Source: Erodium maritimum
Taxonomy: Eukaryota; Streptophyta; Magnoliopsida; Geraniales; Geraniaceae
Assembly: GCA_963921825.1 (NCBI GenBank)
Contig: OY997594.1
Coordinates: 55,599,675-55,663,674, forward strand
Reading direction: 5' to 3'
DNA length: 64,000 nucleotides
Both the position numbers and the translations under genes were made by a program. Shown here in pieces: positions 21,688-62,600 of the stretch; the stretch's first letter is position 1; each line of letters opens with the position of its first letter. Below the pieces are notes generated by a model. The model saw only the letters and a list, made by a program, of their open reading frames with translations. It made no database searches and was not told where the DNA came from.

Positions 21688-23396
21688 TAGACTTTGCAAA
21701 AGCCTTCGATAAAGTAAATTGGTTTTATCTAATCTCTACTATTTTCATAATGGGTTTTGGTAGACAGTGGTGCAATTGGATTAAAGCCTGTCTCAAAGTT
21801 AATGCCTCTGTTTTGATCAATGGTTCTCCATCTCCAGAATTCGCTTCATCTTGCGGGGTTTAACAGGGTTGTTCCCTTTCACCGTTTCTCTTCATCTTAG
21901 CTGCGGAAGGGCTTCATCTCTTACTGACCAAAGAAAAAGCGGATGAATTGATTAAAGGGTACTCCTTTGACAACTCCTCTACCTCTTTGTCGCATCTCCA
22001 GTTTGCAGACGACTCCCTCATGTTCCTTCAAGCCGAGCCAATTACAACTGCCAATGTGAGAATCATCCCTCAAGCCTTTCACCATGCTTCAGGTTTGGAG
22101 ATCAATTTTTCTAAGTCTAAACGAGTGCTTCTCAATGCGACTGCTCTAGAGGAACAGAATCTGGCCTCAATTTTAGGCTGTGATATTGGCTCCCTACCCT
22201 GCGCATATCTTGGCTTCAAATTAGGTGCTAACGCCAATCTCACCTCGACTTGAAAGCCTGTTGTGGAAAAGTTCCAAAGAGCTCTTGCAAGATGGAATTC
22301 AAAGCTCCTCTCTCAGGGTGGTAGACTGACTTTAATTCAATCGCATCTTTTGCCTCTCCCTGTATTCTAAATATCGCTCTATCGAGCCCCAAAATCTACA
22401 ATAGCGGATCTGGAACGAATCATGCGATCCTTCCTTTGGGGTGCCAAGCCGGGTAAGAAGCCTTTTTGCAAAGTGCCTTGGGAAATTGTCTCCCAACCCA
22501 AATCCTCTGGGGGCCTGGGTATTAAAAGACTTGAGGATTTCAATATCAGCCTCCTTTTTAAATGGCTTTGGAGGTTTGCAGTTGAGCCTGATTCTCTATG
22601 GAAGATGCTAGTTTGCGATCTTAATGGTTGGCATGCTGATTCGTGGGATCTCTCTCAACTTCGGGTGGCCCGGCCTTCGCCCATCATAGCTCAAATTCTG
22701 AATCTCTTTCGGGAAGACAGGGTCTCCTCCCTCTTCGGCCCCTCTGGTTTCAAATGGACTTTGGGTACAGGTCGTCGCATCAAGTTCTGGACGGATTGCT
22801 GGTGCTCTCTTGAGCCTCTATCCTCTCTTTTTCCCAGGTTCTTTGAACGGGCAACGAATAAAGAAGCACTTGTAGCTGACCTTTGGGTTTCAAACTGTTG
22901 GGCCTCTCCTCGCAGAATCGCGCCTAGGGGTCGTGCTCGGAGCCTCCTATCTAGTCTTCTTCTCCATGTCAATCAGCTAAAGTCGTCGTCAAGGCCGGAC
23001 GAAACTGCTTGATGCTATAATCAGACATCCTTTAAAGTAAAAGATTGCTACTTAGCAATTTGTAGGGGCTCTTTCTCCCCCAAGTCAGCCTGGGCTCCGA
23101 TTCTATGGAAAGCAAAATTGCCCCCCAAAGTCGCCCTCTTCGGCTGTCTGGTTAGTTGCATTTGATGCAGTTCCTTCTAAATCGTTTCTTGAAGAGCGAG
23201 GGATCTCTATCTCCTAAGGTTGCACTGGGTCCGACTCCTCTTCATTGGCATGTGGTACCCCTGGCTCTCTCGTCCATCTTTGAAAAATCCAAGCACTTAA
23301 GCTTCTTGCTCCTATTGACCGAAAACCCTTTGATCAAGCCCTCGGTTTTTCTACTTTGATCGAAGAACCCTCTTTCATATTTTTCATTGATAAAAA
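21688..23396 (+). pseudogene. 5'-truncated LINE ORF2 fragment (reverse transcriptase to zf-RVT)
   Basis: Similarity starts abruptly inside the reverse transcriptase at DFAKAFDKVNWFYL and continues through the QGCSLSPFLFILAAEGL motif, the catalytic block FADDSLMFLQAE, the thumb (CAYLGFKLGANA), the WNSKLLSQGGRLTLIQS block, FLWG, GGLGIKRLEDFN and a zf-RVT type tail (KDCYLAICRG...WKAKLPPKVALFG). The end is CATTGATAAAAAAAAG at about 23396. In-frame stops occur after the SCGV of the RT motif (21861), at about 22251, in the QSHL segment (about 22370) and at 23010. It is a dead 1.7-kb copy from the L1 group and has no clear target duplication. Confidence 0.88.
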
Positions 23397-23983
23397 AAAG
23401 CTTGAAAAAATTCAACAGCATGAACAAATTGTAACATAATTGAAAAGGAAACTTCACGTTATATCCCTTTTTGTTCCAAGTATTAAAAAGTGAAGTTGGA
23501 CAAGGCATCTTCCTCCTGTATTTCATGGAGTGGATGGATAAAAATAAATTATCAGTCTCGATGAAACCTTCCATCACAACAATTAATTAATAGCAAGATC
23601 TGGATTACTTGTCAGTCTTATTCTTCCATCACAATAATCAATTAATAACAAGATGCTGTATGATTAGGATGAGGATGAGGATTACACATATAATAAATTA
23701 TACTTTTACATAACGCTAAAGAAACATGTAAAGCCAACCCTTAATCAAAGTGCATCAACCACTCTCCTCCCGATCAGCTATAATCCTCACAACAGGTTAA
23801 CTCTCTCCAATCTCTCATCAGATTGCAGATCTCAAGTATGTAAATATCTTGCTCAATCAACTATGGTTTTGAAGTTTCTTTAGCAACAACTCTGAACTAC
23901 TCATTATATTTCCTATTCCTGTCTGGGCTTGCTTATTCTTGATAGTCTTATTGGTTTGAATTAATAGAACGAGTAAAGGCCAC
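23397..23983 (+). promoter_or_regulatory. Upstream region and probable 5' UTR intron of the 80-residue gene
   Basis: A possible 5' UTR intron runs from CTCAA/GTATGTAAAT (donor near 23836) to TTGAATTAATAG/AACGAG (acceptor near 23968), followed by the ATG at 23984. AT-rich promoter-like sequence with TATAATAAATTATA lies at 23688-23702. These are single-sequence guesses. Confidence 0.4.
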
Positions 23984-43104: not shown

Positions 43105-45785
43105 TGTCACGCCCAAATCCGGTTTTAACCGGACTCGAGACGTGAACTAAAACAATAATAAGTTTAGATGAAAGTAAAGCCAAAACAAGTCTCAATTAGT
43201 AGTTTAAAACTCTAAACAACGTCGCGAGTCACAGTTCAGTAAAAACAACGGTAAAACAATAGAGAAGATAACGGTACGTCTCTAGACTACTAGCCTAGAA
43301 CCCTCGCAAGCTCCCAAGCGTCGATCATTAGGGCATACTAGTACTCACCACCACGGGTAACCGTTCAATTAGGGCATACTAGTACATCACACAACTAATT
43401 TTCAACACGGAACTCGGAACCACAATCCTCAACTCAAGACCAAACCACACTCACAAACATACTCACACGAACAAGCACAAACTGCAACCACAACACTTAA
43501 CAGATCAACAAACAGCGTAAATAGTAAATCACACACACGTCCCGTACCAAGCCAACAGCACGCACATCACACACAGCAGACCCACACAAACGTAGTACAA
43601 CCAATCCAACATCTCCGGCTATCACAACCCGTTCCATTTATGTCGTACCGGATCACGAAGCCTCGGTCCTGACATCTTCCCGTCACGTAGACTCGGGGTA
43701 ACATACCAGACCGGAAATCCCTCAGTCGGACGTCTTCCTGTCACGTAGACTCAGGGCCTCACGTACAACGGACCGGCACATACCCCGGTCATAGGTCCTC
43801 CCATCGCAGAGACTCGGGATAACAGTCACACCGTCCTCGTCCTCAATACTCTACACCGGCATACTCTCTCAGTGTAGGTATCATTTCGGACACACAACTC
43901 CTCGTGGAACAAACATCAAGATAATATCACACATCACAATGCCATAAATTCAAACCCGGCTTACCAAGCACACAATCTTACCAAAACCAGTCACGTCGGT
44001 CTATCATCCATCCGACCATATCACAACCAAAGGTTCACGTCAATCACACGCATGGCACACTTGCCCATAGATAACCACACATAATACACCGAGTAATATC
44101 ACGACATGCTTCTCGATCTAACATACTTAAATCACTCATCGTGCATTTCAACCAAAAACAGGGCAATTCAATCAACACACAACCTAGGGGCTCGCCAAGG
44201 CCCGCATGCATTTCTACCAGCACAACAATCCCAAAATTACGGCTCGACATGGCACGTAAGCTATCCCTCGATTCACTCGTTCCTCACATCCTAATCATGC
44301 AGTTCTAACAGTTCAAATTAAGTAAAAACGACCTATAGGCATACTAGTAACTTTTTGCAATTGAACCAGTATCCGCTACGTTCCCTACCTCAAGACGAAC
44401 CGACAGCTACGTCTTCTAGCTGCTGACGTCATGGCCTAACTTCGGTCTTCTCGGGCGAAGTCCAAGTCTGATTTTAATAGGTAAAACTTACAATTAGTTC
44501 CGATACAGTCAAAATAAATTCAACAGTTGTCTTTTAAACTCGAGCGGGCTAAAAGCGGGATTATACGACGAATCGGGTTCAAGCACCCGAGCCCCGAGCA
44601 CAGAACCCGATGCACATTTCTCGAGGCACGGTTCCCAATGCACGGATCCTAGGGCACAGTTTCCGGGGCACAGATCCCGAGACACTGATCCCGATGCATG
44701 GGTTTCGAGGCACGTTTCCCGAGGTGTCCAATTCCCGCTTTTAATCCCATCCTAAGTCCGTTTAACAGTCCGATTTAAACGTCCCACATCCTCGTAACGG
44801 TTCGACAGTTCAAGGTTCTAATTTTTTATCGATCCGGTAATTCCGTCATCCAAGCGTTCCAGTTCGATCAACAGTCCAAAAGTCCTTTTTAAATCATATC
44901 TGATTTTTTTTAATTTAATTTTCGTTTCAAAACCTTTCTTTTATTTTCTTTTCTTTAATTTCAATTCCGATAATTTCTGTCTCAAAACAGACTGTCCAGA
45001 ATAAAAACGCATAAGGAAAAAGAAACGAAAGGGAGGAAGAAGTCTCGGGTCAGAAACCGACCGACCACCGCAAGAACGTCGCCGCCCGAGGCCTCATCGT
45101 AGGGAAAAGAACGACGGGAGGGTCACGGTTGCAGCCGTGGGAGTGGCGGAGCACGGCGAGGATTTCACCTCAGATCCGGACCGAAGGGCGAGGGTCTCAA
45201 CAGAGCAGCGGCGGTCCGAAACGACGGCGGCGGTTTGGTGTCGGTGTCCTCCTTCGCCGGCGAGCCAGACGGTGGATGGCGGGCTAGATCTTGAGGACTC
45301 CGCGGGTCTCCTCGTAGAAGAGGCCGCTGAAGCATTTGACGCCTTCACGGCGAGCCAGACGGGCACGGAGAAGAAGGAAGGTGGAGTGAGAGGTCGGGGG
45401 AGAGGGAGGGAAGGGAGGAGAGGGAGAGATGTGGAAAGGGAGAGATGTGGAAAGGGGCGGAGGTCGGAACCGAGAGAGGGAATCGAGAGGTTGGGGACGG
45501 CGCTGCTGAAGGATTGGGCCAAAAACCCTAAAATTGAGGTTAAATAACACGGGCTGGCTTAAACGGGCCTCATGTCGAAGTTGGTCCGCTCGGCCCAAAG
45601 GGAGAAGGGGATCCGAAAGGGGGCGGGTCTGGCCTGGCCGAGTTTACTGGTCGGGTCTGGTCCGACCCGGTCCGACACTTTACCTTTTTTTTAAACGAAT
45701 TAAAAATTAAACCAAAATTCAACCCCGACATTACCACGCAATTAAATAAAAAAACTTAGCCTTTTTAACCGGGGCGGTCTTTACA
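43105..45785 (-). mobile_element. Solo LTR of the long-LTR family, 2681 bp, nested in copia
   Basis: Starts TGTCACGCCC and ends GGTCTTTACA on the plus strand (TG...CA), with AATAT on both sides; the family end GGGGCGTGACA lies at the low-coordinate side, so it is in minus orientation. No internal domain, so it is a solo LTR left by recombination between the two LTRs. It belongs to the subfamily with CTAGCTGCTGACGTC (44430), also seen at 59690. It has a GC-rich patch (44590-44720) and lacks the hairpin segment. Copia reverse transcriptase lies to its left and copia RNase H to its right. Confidence 0.9.
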
Positions 45786-45790: not shown

Positions 45791-46537
45791 CGTCATTTGG
45801 TCGGTTGTTTATTGTACCTAACTATTACTCGACCAAATATTAGTTATACGGTACACATTTTGAGTCAGGTCATCCATGCTCCTTGGTAACCACACCTAGA
45901 TGCGATGTTTCATGTCCTACGCTACCTCAAGAGCAGACCACGGCAAGGGTTATTTTTCTCAACCGAAAACACTCTCACCCTACGAGCATATTATGATGTT
46001 GATTAGACAGGATACTGCGACACTCAGAAATCCACCACCGGTTATATAATGTTCATCGGGTTATCTACAATCATTTGACAATCAAAGAAATAAGCTGTAG
46101 TGTCTTGTTCGTTGGTAGAAGCCGAATATAGAGCCATGAGGACTACTAACCGAGAGATAGTTTGCTGTGCCAGCTTCTCACTGATCTTCAGATACAACAC
46201 CATATGATCGTTACGCTCTTTTGTGATCATCATGCAGCTATTCACATTGTTTCAAATCCAGTCTTTTATGAACGAACAAAGCACATAGAGAATAGAGATC
46301 GATTGCCATTTTGTGCGCCAACAATTCCAGGCAGGAGTCCCACGACCTCAACCAATTTCTAGCCGACACCAGGTTGCAAATATCTTCACCAAAGGTTTGG
46401 GATGAGATCGCTTTCATAAGCTTCTCTGCAAGTTGGGCATTTCTAACATCTAAGCTCCAACTTCAAGACGAGTATTGACGGTATTTTAGGATAAGATCAA
46501 TTTAGATCCTAATCACAAGTCAATCATATACTCGTTT

Positions 46538-46972
46538 ACTCAAACCTTAGAAACGGGTGAGCAGGCCTCCCAAACACTTTGCGGAGTTTTATACCATTCA
46601 GGGAAAATCACGGAATCGTTCTTTAGAACGGGAAAGACGCGTTCGTCCCCCCGACATTGGGAAACAGGTTGAACAAGGAAAACTTCAGGCCGGAAAAGAT
46701 GCTTGGATTACAGTTCGTGAATTAGCTGCCAAGTTGAAGACTCGTCTTTGATCGGGAGGCGAGATTGACGGCTACCGTTTCTGTTTTCCGTTTTCCTTTG
46801 TCTGTTTTTCGTTTTTCCTGTTTCGTTTTTAGGAAAAAGGCTAGGCCTTTTAACTCCCCTAATGGAGTTCCTTTGTAATTATTGGCTTTTCTCATGTACC
46901 TTCTTGATGCAGGCATTCCGGTTTCTTTCAGGAATCGGTCTTATTAATAAATTTTCGAGCTTATAAAAAAAA
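46538..46972 (+). mobile_element. 5'-truncated copy of the RRM ORF1-only retroposon
   Basis: A 435-bp 3' fragment of the element at 47366-49153, in opposite orientation. Shared features are the peptide SRPPKHFAEFYTI (SRPPKHLSDFYTI in the longer copy), KSRNRSLERER, DIGKQVEQG and the end TTAATAAATTTTCGAGCTTATAAAA. Flanks TATACTCGTTT (46527-46537) and TACACTCGTTT (46973-46983) form an 11-bp target duplication with one mismatch. In this copy the frame runs on to a C terminus KDAWITVRELAAKLKTRL. It lies in the 3' LTR of the copia fossil, so it is younger than that element. Confidence 0.85.
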
Positions 46973-47348: not shown

Positions 47349-47365
47349 TTAATTAAATTTTACTT
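47349..47365. repeat. Target-site duplication of RRM retroposon (3' side)
   Basis: TTAATTAAATTTTACTT, matching 49154-49170 at 16 of 17 positions; the T-run (A-tail of the minus-strand element) begins directly after it. Confidence 0.9.
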
Positions 47366-49153
47366 TTTTTTATAAGCTCGAAAATTTATTAATAAGACCG
47401 AATCCAAAAGACCGGAATGCCCTGTTCAAGAAGAACAGGGAAAAAGAGAACGATTACAAAGGAGCTCCAATGAGGAGGAGATAAAAGGTCAAACCTTTTC
47501 CTAAAAACGAAACAGGGAACACAACCAAAATAAGAACCCTTCCAATCCTCGCTTCCGAAGTCAGAGACGATCGTTCGCTTCTTTCTTCTTAGAAACCAAC
47601 TCACGGACTTTAGTCCATGCGTTAGTCCCATGAGACGAGGCTGCCAATTAAGAGTTCCCTTTTCGGCCTTGCTCAACCTGTTTCCCAATATCGACAGGCC
47701 GAACGAATCTTTCTCGATCCAAAGAGCGATTCCTTGACTTACACTTAATGGTATAAAAATCCGATAAATGTTTGGGAGGTCGACTCACTCGTTTCGCAGG
47801 CTTGAGTAGGACCTCCTTCCAACTACCTATATCTTCATCGGATCCCGAATCTATCGACCCATTACTCGGCCCATGGAATACTGCCCCACCAGCTTCAAGC
47901 CCAATCTTCACCAAGCCCGAAACGTGTGCATGAGCTGCAGATTCTGCAGATTCTTTCACTTGGGCTGCATTGGGCCGGTCCAACAGCTCTTGAAACTGGA
48001 CCTCATTTGCGAGAGCGTCATCCTTCTCTCCACAAGGAAACGTAGCCAAACAATCTGAGGCGTGATTCTCGGCGACGTAATCCCCACCCAAAGCGTGATT
48101 TTCGTCGGCATGATTTCCACCAGATTTTACGATATCAATTGTAGATTCGCGAATTGACTTTTCAAAATTCAAAACCTCTTGAATGGTCACAGATTGCTCC
48201 CCGATACTTCTCCCAGTCTGTTCGCCGGAGTGCATCACCGACTCACCACTCCGACGCTCATCCGATCGGGGACACGATCTCTTTTCACCAGAGACAGCTA
48301 CAGCTTCACGCGAAGCAACTTCAAACTCCGACGCGCCCTGAGTCGAAAGCTCGAATGTACTCTGTTTTGAGTTCATCTCCGTGTCTTCAACAGGGGGTGT
48401 ATGACAATGCTCTAAATCGCCATGAACGTCCATCTTTGCTGCACCATCAATCAGCAACATGTCATCTATGCGTTTGGAACCAGAAGAAGGAAGGACGCCC
48501 AATTGACCATCGTCTTCTCCTTTCCCTCTAAGCACTTTCCTGCTTCTGGCCATAGCGACTAACAAAATAAAACCATTCAGTTTCATCCCATTCATACACT
48601 CTACAGCCTTAAGAAGCGATTCATTTTCCTTAAACCGCACAAATCCGTACAACTGATAATTACGGTTTGGGCGACTAAGAGCAACCGATGAAACTATCTC
48701 CCCAAATGGTGAGAACGTGTTTTTGACCCAATTTGCAGTGGTTCCATACGGGACATTGCAGACGAACACTTCGTCTTCAACCAAGCTTCTCTGATATCTG
48801 GATCCAGGCAGCGTTCCGGAACCAAAGTCACCAACTCGCTGCTCCCGTTTCATACCACGCCTCCGTCGGCCATGACCAAGTTTTTTCACAGGCTTCGTGT
48901 CCTTCTTCTCACCCGGTAGCACAACATCCGTCTTTACAACGGGAGCTGAAACGCCACTGGTATGAACTGAATCCCGAGCATGCCTCTGAGTTCGTCGCTT
49001 CTTCCCCATCGAACTTGTCTTCTGAGCTTGAACCCCAGCCCTCAAGGTCGGGCAATCCTTCATTGCCGGATACTCAGCCATGAGTTCTGAACCGAAGGAG
49101 AAGAGGGAGAGCATTGTCTTCCAAAACGACTGATAAATGTTACCGGTTTATAC
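47366..49153 (-). mobile_element. ORF1-only LINE derivative with RRM domain, 1788 bp
   Basis: A complete retroposon by its ends: 17-bp target duplication (one mismatch), a short A-tail at 47366 on the minus strand and a 5' leader of about 40 bases before the ORF at 49114. It carries one long frame with an RRM and no endonuclease or reverse transcriptase. RRM-bearing ORF1 is established for the BNR-type L1 lineage of plants; here the 3' UTR follows ORF1 directly. A second, truncated copy lies 390 bp away on the opposite strand, so the short form has moved more than once or was formed from a master of this structure. Confidence 0.85.
47648..49114 (-). CDS. RRM-type LINE ORF1 protein, 488 residues
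   Basis: A basic N terminus (about residues 35-95, KKRRTQRHARD and GHGRRRRGMKREQR) is followed by one RRM at about 115-190. RNP2 is VFVCNV (116-121 region) and RNP1 is YQLYGFVRF (about 153-161). A long Ser/Glu-rich middle follows, then the conserved C-terminal block VSRPPKHLSDFYTIKCKSRN and DIGKQVEQG. The frame ends at GRKGNS, but a neighbouring frame continues NAWTKVRELVSKKKEANDRL, matching the C terminus of the truncated copy at 46538-46972; a small frame change near 47660 therefore shortens the protein by about 35 residues. The first Met has a second Met at residue 12 (MAEYPAMKD). Likely role: binding its own RNA in a ribonucleoprotein. It could be mistaken for a splicing-factor-like host gene. 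Confidence 0.82.
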   Translation of the reverse strand: MLSLFSFGSELMAEYPAMKDCPTLRAGVQAQKTSSMGKKRRTQRHARDSVHTSGVSAPVVKTDVVLPGEKKDTKPVKKLGHGRRRRGMKREQRVGDFGSGTLPGSRYQRSLVEDEVFVCNVPYGTTANWVKNTFSPFGEIVSSVALSRPNRNYQLYGFVRFKENESLLKAVECMNGMKLNGFILLVAMARSRKVLRGKGEDDGQLGVLPSSGSKRIDDMLLIDGAAKMDVHGDLEHCHTPPVEDTEMNSKQSTFELSTQGASEFEVASREAVAVSGEKRSCPRSDERRSGESVMHSGEQTGRSIGEQSVTIQEVLNFEKSIRESTIDIVKSGGNHADENHALGGDYVAENHASDCLATFPCGEKDDALANEVQFQELLDRPNAAQVKESAESAAHAHVSGLVKIGLEAGGAVFHGPSNGSIDSGSDEDIGSWKEVLLKPAKRVSRPPKHLSDFYTIKCKSRNRSLDRERFVRPVDIGKQVEQGRKGNS

Positions 49154-49170
49154 TTAATTAAAGTTTACTT
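49154..49170. repeat. Target-site duplication of RRM retroposon (5' side)
   Basis: TTAATTAAAGTTTACTT; one mismatch to 47349-47365. Confidence 0.9.
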
Positions 49171-57321: not shown

Positions 57322-58237
57322 TGTCATGCCCCAAATCCGGTTTTGACCGGACTTGAGACGTGAGCCAAAGATAATAATAATAAATGTGAATTTAAAATAA
57401 AGAGTTCCTCAAATAACCGTTCAAACCAATAATTCCGACCACAGGAGTCAACGCTCAAAATTCAAGTAAAGAAGTTTAGTACAAAAGAGAAAGTACGTCG
57501 CTAGACAACCAAAATCTAGGACTCTCGCAAAGCTCCCCAGCTCTAAGACGTCCTCTAAACCAACTCACGATCGAAGCCTGTAAAACAGTAATGAATGGGG
57601 TGTGAGCTTTCGCTCAGTAGGAAAAAGTAGTTAAGGGGATGAGCTATCTGCTCACCTCCACGGGTAACCGTCCAATTAGGGCATACTAGTAAGCACAACA
57701 ACTAACGAAATAGTTAAACAAGTAACTAAAGATAACACTTGACCCACACTCGGGAGCAACCCGGATATCAAACTCAACACTGAACCGAACTCATACAAAT
57801 ATTCTCAACTATGCCCTTAATCACTGTCACCCCATCAATTCTCGATGGACAGCGACCACGGTTATCTCTTAACCTGCTCCGTCACCATAATTACTAAGTC
57901 AAGAATTATAAACGGTTAATCGACAACACGAATAGAAAACCAACGGGAACCCAACATTATCGATAATAGGACTAAGCTAAAGAACCATCCAAATATCAGA
58001 ATATTATATTATTAAGACCACTACGAACGTCACTCAAACCCGATATCATGCAGACATAAGACACATACACCGTGATACTCCGATCACCACGCACAACTCA
58101 ACAAATACATCATACCGGAATACACCCTTGGTCTAGATGTCTTCCCGGACACACATCATCGGGGTGAAGCAATACATCATACCGGAATACACCATCGGTC
58201 TAGATGTCTTTCCGGACACACAACATCGGGGTGAAAC
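57322..58237 (-). mobile_element. Partial long LTR, copy A of a stack (fossil)
   Basis: Starts TGTCATGCCCCAAATCC (family end in minus orientation), then the acceptor-like CTGTAAAACAG (57579), hairpin 57603-57616 and two 67-bp repeat units (58102-58237). It is cut at 58237 where the next LTR begins. No coding sequence. Confidence 0.78.
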
Positions 58238-60544
58238 TGTCACGCCCCAAATCTGGTATTGACCGGACTCGAGACGTGAACCGGGATTTGTAGAGAAAAC
58301 GATTTAAAATACATAATTAAATCCAAAACTGTAGATAGATATAAAAATAGTCAAGGTCTAAAAATCTAAGTCCTACGCTCAGTTAAATACAACAGTCGAA
58401 AATACAGTACGTCTCTAAGAAACATAAAATAAACTCGGGCCTCCGCTAGCTCCCAAGCTCTGCGTAACCCTCTAATCCAAATCATAGCTATCACCTGTAG
58501 AAAACATGGAAAGGGGTGAGCTTGACGCTCAGTAGGAGAATACACAACACTTGCCCCAATAAAGTAGTATTAGCACGTTTCCAAACTAACTTTTAACAAT
58601 TTAAAGGAGAAGACGACAACGAGACATGTATCCCAAATTAAGCAACCTTCACTTTACTCAACCACAAACTATTCCGTAAATCCCCGTCCAAACACTTTCA
58701 CGACCGACTCACGGATAACCCAAAGACGATACTTTCAATTACACGGGAAACCTCACACATGAATCTCATCATCAAACAATCACAATCAAGTCATTCGCAG
58801 TCACACGCAACTCATAACAATTGCACGGTCTCGGGAGCAACCCGCTCGGCCCGGTGTAGCCGCACGCAACTTCCCCAACACATAGTCGGGATAGGCGGTC
58901 GACCTTATCGCGGAACACAGCGTTTTACCGATACACGGAAGGCAGGGAAATCGCCTCTTCGCGGAACAACCTCATCGCGGAAACAACGTTTTACCGATAC
59001 ACGGAAGGCAGTGAAATCGCCTCTTCACGGCACAACCTCATCGCGGAACAACACATCGTTTTACCGAGTGCTAGACGGAAGGTAGGGAAACCACCTCTTC
59101 GCGGGACACAGCGTTTTACCGACTCTAGGTCGGAAGGTAGGGAAACCACCTTTCTTAGTAACCAGAGTACCACAATCACAATCAAAATCACAATCACAAT
59201 CACATTCTATATTTACTCCTGTAACCGTCACGCACTTACCATCACTTACCGACACCACACTCAACGTGGTAACCCAACCGGCTTAGCCGGTATCTATTCC
59301 CCAAAGTCCACAACTCACATGTTACATAGATAGCATCAAATCGTTCAAGACCCTAATATGCATCACTAAGTTCACCTCTACTCGTTTTCATGTTCGTTAT
59401 TTATTAACCGTTTAACAACACAGAGCACACAATCAAACACAATCAACAAACAATCCTACAGGCGCGACATGGCCTGATTCTACCAACACGGCATACCAAC
59501 ACCTACGGCACGACATGGCTCGTAGGTGGTTCACAATTTATAAGTCTATGCTAGTTAATCACATCCTATATGCGAGCTAGTTATTTATCCGGTTATTAGG
59601 TTTCCCTATATGCATTCTAGTACAACCGTAAAGAGGAGGTATCAAGGTATTTCCCTACCTCTCAATCTCTATCTGGATCTCCTAGCTGCTGACGTCCGGG
59701 CCTACCTCCGGTCTTCTCCACGATCGAGGTTAAAGCCTGATTTTAACAAATAAGGACTGTAATCAGTCCCGGTCCAGTCCGTAACAGTCCTCTAAATTAT
59801 CAAGTAAGTCCTTTAATTTATCAACTTGGTCCTTTTAATTTACCTGATTTAAGTCTTTTAAAGTAATTAATTAATTAATTAAGCTGTCCGACCCGGCCCC
59901 GACCCGAGTCCGACCCGAATCCGGAAAACGGATCCAAATCTGACCTGGATCCGTGTCTGGACCCGAACCTAACCCGAGCCCGACCCAGACCTGGATCCAG
60001 GCCCGACCCAGACAAAATTCCAGGCCCGACTCAGACTCGAATCAAGGCCCAGTCTGTCCTATCCCGAGCCCAAGGCCCGTGTCTCGCCTTGGCCCAAGCC
60101 CAAGGCTCGGTCCTGGCCTGAGTTGGGAACGGAGGTGAGACGGGGCTAAGGTTCCGGTGAGTGAGGACGGCGGCAGGCGAGCTAGGGTGGGTTCTCAACG
60201 GCGTCAGGGAGGCTTGGAGTGACGAGGGAAGGTCGTTGGTGCAAAATCCAGGGCCTCTCCGTCCAGATCTGACGGCGTGAGAGCTTCGCCGGCGCGAAAA
60301 ACCTCAGAACTGGAACTCGAGAGTTCTGGCGAGTCTCTCCAAACGATCTCGACCAAAACGAGCTCGTGCGCGCTCGATTCTCAGGGAAGGGACCAACGGG
60401 GATGGTGAATCAGGCCGGGAAAGGGCTCACCGTCTCCGGTTTCTTCTGTTGCAGGCGCGGCGAGGCTCGAACGAGGAGGGTGGCGTCGTTGGTGCGAAGG
60501 CGAGGAGGTTGAGGACGGAGAGGTTCGCTCTTTGACACGGGGGG
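58238..60544 (-). mobile_element. Partial long LTR, copy B, nested in copy A (fossil)
   Basis: Starts TGTCACGCCCCAAATCTGG in the middle of a 67-bp unit of copy A; the five bases before it are GAAAC. It belongs to the CTAGCTGCTGACGTC subfamily of the solo LTR at 43105. It carries its own repeat (58920-59160, TTTTACCGA...GGAAGG(C/T)AGGGAAA units of about 60 bp) and a CCCGACCC-rich patch (59890-60110). Its last few hundred bases are missing and no closing duplication is visible. Confidence 0.72.
58910..59160. repeat. Minisatellite of copy B
   Basis: About four units of 55-70 bp with CAGCGTTTTACCGA, GGAAGGCAGGGAAATC and CCTCTTCGCGG. It is a third type of array at the same LTR position as 2034-2322 and 7936-8290. 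Confidence 0.75.
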
Positions 60545-62600
60545 TGTGAGGCGACGGAGTCTCGGCCGGTTTTGGCCGGAATCGAGACGTGAACTAAAGA
60601 AAAGTAAAAACAATAATAAATTTAAAAGTAAAAGTAAGTTAAACGAGATAAAAGTAGATTTAAACAACAGAAACCCCGAATTTAGTTCCAAAATAAACAA
60701 CCCCGATAATCATAAGTCAATGTTTTAAATCCAATAGTTCCAAAATAAACAACCCCGATAATCATAAGTCAATGTTTTAAATCCAAAAGAAAGGGAGTTC
60801 GATCTAGTACAAAAGGTAAAGTACGTCACAAATAAATGTTAATCCCCGAACTCTCGATGAGCTCCCGAGCTCTAGGACGTCCTCTAGACCGAGTCACGAT
60901 CGAAACCTGTAAAACAATAAAAACAGAGGGGGTGAGATTTCGCTCAGTAGGAAAAAGTAGTAATGGGATTGGACATCCGCTCCGTCACCATAATTACTAA
61001 GTCGAGAATTATAAACGGTTAATCGACAAAACGAATAGAAAATCAACGGGAACCCAACATTATCGATAATAGGACCAAGCTAAAGAACCATCCAAATATC
61101 AGAATATTATATTATTAAGACCACTACGAACGTCACTCAAACCTGATATCATGCAGACATAAGACACGTACACTGTGATACTCCAATCACCACGCACAAC
61201 TCAACAAATACATCATACCGGAATACACCCTCGGTCTAGATGTCTTCCCGGACACACAACATCGAGGTGAAGCAATACATCATACCGGAATACACCATCG
61301 TTCTAGATGTCTTCCCGGACACACATCATCGGGGTGAAACACACATCATACCGGAATACCCGTCGGTCTAGATGTCTTCCCGGACACACAACATCGGGGT
61401 GAAACAATATACCAGAAACGCACATCGGTCTTCCCGGAAACGCACATCGGGGTAAACAAGTAATACATCATACCGGAAATGCACTATCGGCCTAGATGTC
61501 TTCCCGGAAACACTCCTCGGGGTAAGCAAACAATACACTCCCCGTTCCGTGCCCCTTAGAGGCCCGGCACCAGGACCGGACCGTTCCCCTCAGAGGCACG
61601 GCACCAGGCCCGGACCATGCCCCTCAGAGGGCCGGCACCAGGCCAGGACCGTGCCGCTCAGAGGGCCGATACCAAGCACGGACCGTGCCGCTCAGATGGC
61701 CGGTCAGAGGCCCTTTCAGTGCCAAATCTGGGCAGACACAACTTCTTCTTCCCCAACTTCGTTTTCCTGAAAATCTACTTCAACCACTCCATTTCTACCA
61801 TCATTAAACTCCAAAATCAGTCACCAAAACCCCCAAACTTCATTACCCATAATGGGTTTCCTCCAAACATCACCCAACAATTGATTTCTAACCAAAACCT
61901 TCATTATTCTTCATCAAAACAACCATCTAACAACTAATTAAAAACCCGACAAGTTCATGAAATTTCTATGGAAACCCACAACCCCAAATTGATTGAAAGT
62001 AGGAGTTTAGAGGTTACTTACCTTGGAAATGGAGAGATGATGAAGATTGTGAGGTTTTTGAGAAGATTTGGTGAAGAACTTGCTCCAAGCTTTCCTCCTT
62101 TCCTCCCTTCTTCTTCCTCAAGTCAAGAAGCTTTTCCTTTCTCTCTCCCTTTGTGAAATTTCGGCTACAATGGTGTAAATGGGCTGAATTGCTCTCCAAA
62201 AATGGTCTTAAACCTAAGGTTGAGTTGACCAAAAGGCCCTCCCTTGCTCTTTCTTCTATTTTGGCACTTATAAGGGCAAATGGGTCATTAGAGACCCATT
62301 TCTTCTCCTCCAAGTCACCATGGACAAGTTTCCTAGTGGGGGCCACCTTGCCCTTAATAAAATCCAGCATCTTTAATTTAATTAGGTTTAGTCGATAATT
62401 AGCCTTAGTTTGACCCGAGTTTGAATTTTTTCGCAAAGATAGTCATTTGAAAGGAAACGACCCAACTAAGCTAACCGTAATGACGGCTAAGCTTTTTGGG
62501 TCCCGGAAATGTCCCGAATGACTCACAGAGTCTTCGGTTGACTTTTCCGGCCGAAAGTCAACTTTCGCCAAAATTCATCGGTTCGACCAGGATCGACCGG
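60545..62600 (-). mobile_element. Partial long LTR, copy C (fossil)
   Basis: Begins inside the family end (CCGGTTTTGGCCGGAATCGAGACG) and runs to GATCGACCGGG near the other terminus; both extreme ends are lost. A 56-bp direct repeat lies at 60670-60790 (GTTCCAAAATAAACAACCCC units). The 67-bp array is at 61207-61540 and a GC-rich 34-bp array at 61540-61720. Confidence 0.75.
61540..61720. repeat. GC-rich 34-bp minisatellite in copy C
   Basis: About five units of 34 bp with CGGACC(G/A)TGCCCCTCAGAGG and CCGGCACCAGG. It occupies the GC-rich variable position. Its reading frame is Pro/Arg-rich but is not a gene. Confidence 0.82.

Follow-up and report, generated by a model that had tools for sequence, protein, structure and literature searches.

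An RRM-type ORF1-only retroposon with a conserved 3' tail in the genome of Erodium maritimum

Plant L1 LINEs of the BNR type carry an RRM in ORF1, and plant non-autonomous elements that depend on LINEs are, to our knowledge, mostly non-coding (SINEs, Sadhu). A review passage gives two reading frames as usual for L1 LINEs and names BNR among the L1 groups of plants. HAL1, as summarized in the relevant part of one account (PMC5753468), is a non-autonomous L1 derivative that codes for ORF1p only and had several origins in mammals. Ohshima's review (PMC3747384) describes an L1 group of maize and sorghum, monocot 1a in ME1, whose 3' end is of the stringent type; this group and its SINEs have a conserved 3' end with a putative hairpin, and CGAG occurs in the 3' flank. 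Sadhu of Arabidopsis appears in the corresponding part of its description (PMC2848041) as a non-autonomous, non-coding element of about 0.9 kb with target duplications of 7–16 bp and a poly(A) tract. In the literature matches listed, which do not extend to Repbase or to most subscription journals, a plant LINE reduced to ORF1 is mentioned neither in titles nor at the starts of abstracts; this is not proof of absence in print.

The locus described here lies in a stretch of 64,000 nucleotides, referred to as the window. Taken as a whole, the evidence is best explained by assuming that the copy in the window belongs to a large, old and diverse superfamily of plant non-LTR retroposons coding only an ORF1-type RNA-binding protein, with one RRM and a conserved basic C-terminus. 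We consider this explanation highly probable.

The window copy and its protein

Table 1. Features of the window copy and of a related copy beside it (window coordinates).
Feature	Position	Strand	Basis or remark
ORF1-only retroposon, whole copy	47366..49153	-	bounded by target duplication
Target-site duplication, 5'-end copy	49154..49170		16/17 identical to its partner
Target-site duplication, 3'-end copy	47349..47365		partner of 49154..49170
5' leader, 39 nt	49115..49153	-	without recognisable kin among the leaders compared
ORF1, 488 codons	47648..49114	-	both ends shortened relative to relatives
RRM domain, residues 116-182	48569..48769	-	Pfam RRM_1, PDB RRM matches, Ka/Ks
Conserved basic C-terminal block, residues 432-484, WKEVLLKPAKRVSRPPKHLSDFYT...RNRSLDRER...	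47663..47821	-	common to diverged groups
Leftover of the family C-terminal end, open past the early TAA to a TGA	47561..47647	-	by eye; C-termini of relatives
3' hairpin 1, 8-bp stem	47420..47440	-	compensatory changes across copies
Possible 3' hairpin 2, 5 bp in the window copy	47403..47416	-	folding; 8-9 bp in 3/6 folded copies
Terminal 26-mer	47372..47397	-	872 genome matches, at most 3 mismatches
A-tail	47366..47371	-	read from the sequence
Second, 5'-truncated copy of a related lineage, same 3' end	46537..46970	+	blastn; 26-mer at 46939-46964

The element is 1.79 kb long and lies on the minus strand (Table 1). Its limits agree to the base with those proposed in the first-pass annotation, and the 17-bp target duplication described there was recovered with a score of 14, above all 104 flank-swapped controls (highest 12); three shuffled controls made for this duplication reached scores of up to 9. 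Equally, the A-tail is present, consisting of six A plus two A's that are common with the duplication, and the 276 nt between the ORF1 stop and the A-tail are free of ORF2, as had been stated. The leader exists as annotated but is one base shorter than the 40 assigned to it. The annotated frame of 488 residues with its RRM was also found, but it is shortened. About 30 bp near the ORF1 N-terminus, corresponding to about 10 residues, are absent from the window copy as compared with its relatives (SELLSLYGKYYNLMAE in copy L016 versus SELMAE in the window), and its TAA (47648-47650) lies 28 codons ahead of the stop used by these relatives. By eye, the sequence that follows this TAA contains no stop until a TGA at 47561-47563. 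Because of the N-terminal loss and the early TAA, the frame is, judged by the sequences of its relatives, not pristine, and the copy is a slightly damaged member of its family.

The terminal 26-mer occurs twice in the window, against 0.00 occurrences expected from shuffling. The second occurrence belongs to the related copy on the plus strand, which lies about 400 bp away in opposite orientation, beside what by eye appear to be Ty1/copia remnants. It is 68.8% identical over 471 columns (blastn), and its candidate 15-bp duplication with two mismatches is no better than its controls.

Pfam RRM_1 matches the window ORF1 with an E value of 2.8e-13 and is the sole domain detected at E values of up to 1. 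Solved RRM structures also match, the best of them being that of poly(A)-binding protein. Ka/Ks was determined according to Nei-Gojobori for every pairing among 31 sequences that offered 25 codons or more, the pairs not being independent of each other. The RRM has a median of 0.22 (238 pairs, one of them at 1 or above), as compared with 0.41 for the C-terminus (378 pairs), 0.59 for the N-terminus (162 pairs, 20 at 1 or above) and 0.70 for the middle region (381 pairs). The median for the whole ORF is only moderate (0.51; 432 pairs); in comparisons with the window copy it was 0.43–0.66 in 25 of the 29 computable cases, 0.31–0.34 for three of the most diverged sequences and 0.98 for one stretch of 257 codons. 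At least one stop codon is present in 21 of the 31 sequences, and the terminal branches of dead copies push Ka/Ks upward. An earlier run with two groups had left out six of 30 loci (L019, L024, L027, L030, L031 and L034); the repeat with all 31 sequences returned the same median for the RRM. The RRM was under purifying selection, and this lends weight to the importance of the protein, which the first-pass annotation had proposed to be the element's own RNA-binding protein.

Synonymous divergence differs along the frame, with a median Ks of 0.40 in the C-terminal stretch (window 47651-47884) as compared with 0.64 in the RRM and 0.71 in the middle region. The lower value at the end of the frame may reflect constraint at the nucleotide level, an RNA signal or an exchange of modules, reaching from the tail into the end of ORF1.

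Copies, tails and insertion sites across the genome

The genome searched comprises 763 Mb in 40 contigs, and all match counts are lower bounds. At least 49 matches were obtained in a DNA search with the window element. Apart from the window copy, eight copies yielded an unbroken alignment of 1.6–1.7 kb at 74–83% identity, starting at query base 1 or 8 and ending at base 1716-1721. The protein search yielded at least 143 matches, many with open frames of 400–600 amino acids, in which the RRM and the C-terminus of ORF1 are conserved and the middle is divergent. ORF1 pieces reach the 26-mer tail in L032, L033, L035 and L036, where the proteins of L033 and L036 are 40–42% identical to that of the window copy. 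They also extend into the tail in L069–L072, of which L072 has 32% protein identity and the others have partly broken frames. A further C-terminal type, first met in L095, accounts for at least 150 scored matches; of this type the C-terminus beside the tail was read. Six copies lack a recognisable tail (L016, L021–L024 and L031, with a degraded tail in L021), and inspection of all six frames by eye revealed no ORF2 after their ORF1. When LINE ORF2 ends were compared with all examined loci by tblastn, LINE pieces were found solely outside the ORF1 copies, among others in the flanks of L002, L007/L044, L042 and L046. The ORF1-only unit is what inserts.

A copy on contig C7 that is split into two parts (G000:C7:34542261-34546772) was considered as a possible hiding place of ORF2 and rejected, as its 2.8-kb insert sits within ORF1. 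Given this position, a longest frame of 146 codons and pieces that match several repeats of the window, the insert is a nested insertion. The pieces of the insert (G000:C7:34543316-34546125) match window positions 43105-43147, 57322-57616, 58238-58325 and 62017-62575, among others, and the related repeats in the window form a diverged non-coding repeat family.

The 26-mer TCTTATTAATAAATTTTCGAGCTTAT has 872 sites in the genome with at most three mismatches, versus a single one for the reversed control, and a run of at least six A lies within the first 14 nt after it in 62 of 68 distinct ends. Thirty of the 872 sites were read in listed order, 10 on C1 and 20 on C2, all of them exact matches; five listed sites in this range, already known to be of ORF1 type, were passed over, so that the sample underrepresents ORF1. 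Coding sequence for the ORF1 C-terminus lies directly upstream of the tail at 20 of the 30 sites (tblastn with unchanged C-terminal stretches), with the main C-terminal block in 18 cases and the L095 type in two. At the other 10 sites the match to the family 3' end covers 43–179 bp only, and their assignment to a source is uncertain. ORF2 was found at none of the 30 sites by tblastn with LINE ORF2 ends over the 361–591 bp read per site; for a sample of this size, the rule of three leaves room for a share of up to about 10% of these tails that belong to something else, for example ORF2 LINEs.

Upstream of the 26-mer, hairpin 1 is predicted in all six copies that were folded. Hairpin 2 has 8–9 bp in three of them and 5 bp in two (the window copy and L072), and is lacking in L007; folding z-scores of these six 3' ends range from -4.65 to -1.05. 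Pairs were counted in anchored alignments of 59 of 61 ends, two having been dropped for want of an anchor and some of those kept probably being mis-anchored. For hairpin 1, 402 of 472 cells are paired as compared with a maximum of 377 in 300 shuffles, and many changes affect both sides of the stem. For hairpin 2, 370 of 472 cells are paired (shuffle mean 366, maximum 375), i.e. no covariation above shuffling was detected. RNAalifold returned no pairs from the MAFFT alignment of these 3' ends, in which the stems are probably misaligned owing to differences in loop length. The 3' end of the family consists of a near-invariant tail of 26 nt after at least one compensated hairpin. The combination of a conserved terminal sequence with the compensated hairpin 1 suggests a 3' end of the stringent type.

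Target duplications were scored in 26 copies for which both the tail and the sequence upstream were available; 104 controls were made by exchanging flanks between copies. Scores of 11 or higher were obtained for 16 of the 26 copies versus three of the 104 controls, and 13 copies exceeded the highest control (12), while L006 and L013 (score 11) and L005 (score 12) are within the control range. In the listed set of 16 duplications, where L026 (score 10) replaces L013, 12 are 15–18 bp long and 13 start with AA, a count that is somewhat inflated, as the search allows the duplication to take in bases of the A-tail. AA at the start of the duplication is the preference of L1-type endonuclease sites. 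The copies truncate from the 5' end, and the signs of target-primed reverse transcription, i.e. target duplications, an A-tail and 5' truncation, are all present. The ORF1-only family suggested by the first-pass annotation is thus borne out by the genome search, with eight more whole units, 20 of 30 tails joined to ORF1 and duplications above controls in 13 of 26 copies.

The genome is rich in LINEs: at least 150 zf-RVT matches were scored among 12902 candidates, and the end of a LINE in the window (22422-23425) has at least 150 matches. No helper was found among the zf-RVT matches scored and the relatives of this window LINE, nor did the genome searches run reveal a full-length RRM LINE. By eye, the 26-mer tail is absent from four LINE 3' ends, namely those at about 11620 and at 23391 in the window, that of L106, which ends in a different tail, and that of the LINE in L022; the sequences of L103–L105 stop before the LINE end. 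These LINEs have features of their own. That at 22422-23391 (+) is a fragment without evident RNase H whose last ~105 bp are conserved and common to truncated copies. A stem is possible near its end, and the fragment may represent a further L1 lineage that conserves its 3' end. The LINE between about 11620 and 16736 (-) is degraded; it has RT, RNase H and a fragment of a knuckle-type ORF1, and by eye its tail is a different one. In L022, the end of a LINE ORF2 (L022:43-1330) is located just upstream of an ORF1-only copy that has the same orientation. The 3' end of this LINE comprises, by eye, a CCTTC/GAAGG stem, AATAAATAAA and an A-tail, and the LINE appears to end in this tail of its own roughly 100 nt before the start of ORF1.

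The sampled tails bound full-length LINEs only at about 10% of such ends, and this leaves some room for low-copy full-length LINEs with the same tail as the real source, the ORF1-only copies being frequent deletion products. We regard this as unlikely: the deeply diverged groups are all ORF1-only where they were read and have kept a selected RRM, and repeated deletion should have given rise to varied junctions. Less probable still is an origin as retrocopies (processed pseudogenes) of a host RRM gene with no derivation from LINEs. The RRM does resemble those of host proteins such as poly(A)-binding protein, and the copies have A-tails and target duplications, yet host retrocopies would track a single parent gene, whereas here one tail is common to hundreds of 3' ends and is kept across groups with 32–42% protein identity to the window copy. 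Finally, L1 LINEs normally have two frames and the window copy is itself damaged, but it is extremely improbable that this copy arose from a full-length RRM-type LINE by a single, isolated internal deletion, as eight other copies have the uninterrupted unit from ORF1 to the 3' end and, among the 30 tail sites, 20 lie beside ORF1 and none shows the ORF2 between ORF1 and 3' UTR that such a deletion would predict for other copies.

Leaders at the 5' end

The start-codon alignment comprises 18 rows, 13 of which keep the ATG; it is lost or truncated in four, and one (L069) is a weak, distant match. Homology between copies sets in at the ATG or a few bases away from it, and the sequences upstream are mostly unrelated. 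In 13 copies from the listed set of duplications that have the ATG at the expected place, leaders of 9–53 nt separate the duplication from the start codon, the lengths for L005, L006 and L026 resting on duplications at control level. Even close relatives differ in this respect. Over 891 nt of the ORF, L006 and L007 have 94.7% identity, and their leaders agree in just the last 4–5 nt, and the leaders of L003 and L005 (93.7% identity) have essentially nothing in common. Full turnover is argued against by L007 and L013, whose leaders have about 12 nt in common beside the ATG. Over all pairs of leaders, seven of 120 gave p values below 0.05, close to the six expected. A purine is found at position -3 in 14 of 16 copies, among which sister copies are not independent.

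Searched genome-wide with at most three mismatches, the leaders of the window copy, L032, L006 and L035 (last 39 nt) matched only themselves; for these four, there is accordingly no support for an origin from a spliced exon of the host or from a source flank that survives. When 14 leaders were compared with their own flanks, every match stayed at or below the best of 30 shuffles. Our reading of these sequences is that the RNA may begin near the ATG and that each insertion would acquire, at the 5' junction, sequence that is foreign or acts as filler. Alternatively, transcription might set out from sequence flanking a source copy, this copy having diverged or being missing from the assembly. As far as we know, the turnover of leaders is new. 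Combining a start near the ATG with the features of the 3' end, it is tempting to speculate that the ORF1-only superfamily is long-lived and diversified, uses its shared structured 3' tail as a ticket to the helper LINE and acquires a new leader at nearly every insertion. This more extensive proposal is tentative, and we would sooner doubt than defend it in its entirety.

A link to Sadhu, with its 5' CAATCGTTSC motif and its non-coding nature, was considered and rejected, since the leaders are mostly unrelated and the element is coding. The window leader CAGTCGTTTT together with a pyrimidine run in the coding start resembles the Sadhu motif; the leader being unique to the window copy, this likeness is taken as chance.

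Proposed mode of propagation and comparison with known elements

Given the absence of a reverse transcriptase, the target duplications and the 5' truncation of copies, we infer that this enzyme is borrowed. In the mechanism that we propose, the mRNA of the element would direct the synthesis of ORF1p, which would coat its own RNA. The enzyme of an L1-clade LINE would then act in trans and nick the target at a T/A-rich site, and reverse transcription would start at the conserved tail in a target-primed reaction of the stringent type. Such a mode of working would be HAL1-like, but with a sequence-specific 3' tail common to diverged groups.

If true, the family represents a natural experiment on the service that ORF1p renders to the RNA encoding it where the reverse transcriptase is supplied from outside, and it raises the question of why an element would retain the chaperone yet give up the enzyme. 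The common tail makes the helper findable and recognition of the 3' end testable. Likewise, the turnover of leaders asks where such RNAs start and how 5' junctions get sealed in plants.

The first-pass annotation had called the element a plant counterpart of HAL1. This holds insofar as both have an ORF1 protein and no ORF2, the window element as a multi-copy family, and would work alike; it does not extend to membership in HAL1, because the protein is of another, canonical RRM type and lacks the architecture of mammalian L1 ORF1p, and the host is a plant. Moreover, diverged groups of the present family share a near-invariant 26-mer, preceded by a supported hairpin and a possible second one, and this sets the family apart from HAL1. 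With BNR-type L1 elements it shares the RRM in ORF1 and the L1-like insertion features, the difference being that ORF2, with endonuclease and RT, is lacking. Like Sadhu it is non-autonomous and has target duplications and poly(A), but it is coding. Like the 3' flank in the L1 group of grasses, the tail of the family contains CGAG, here after the hairpins, a shared 4-mer that provides a weak lead; the grass group comprises full LINEs and SINEs, whereas the present family codes for ORF1.
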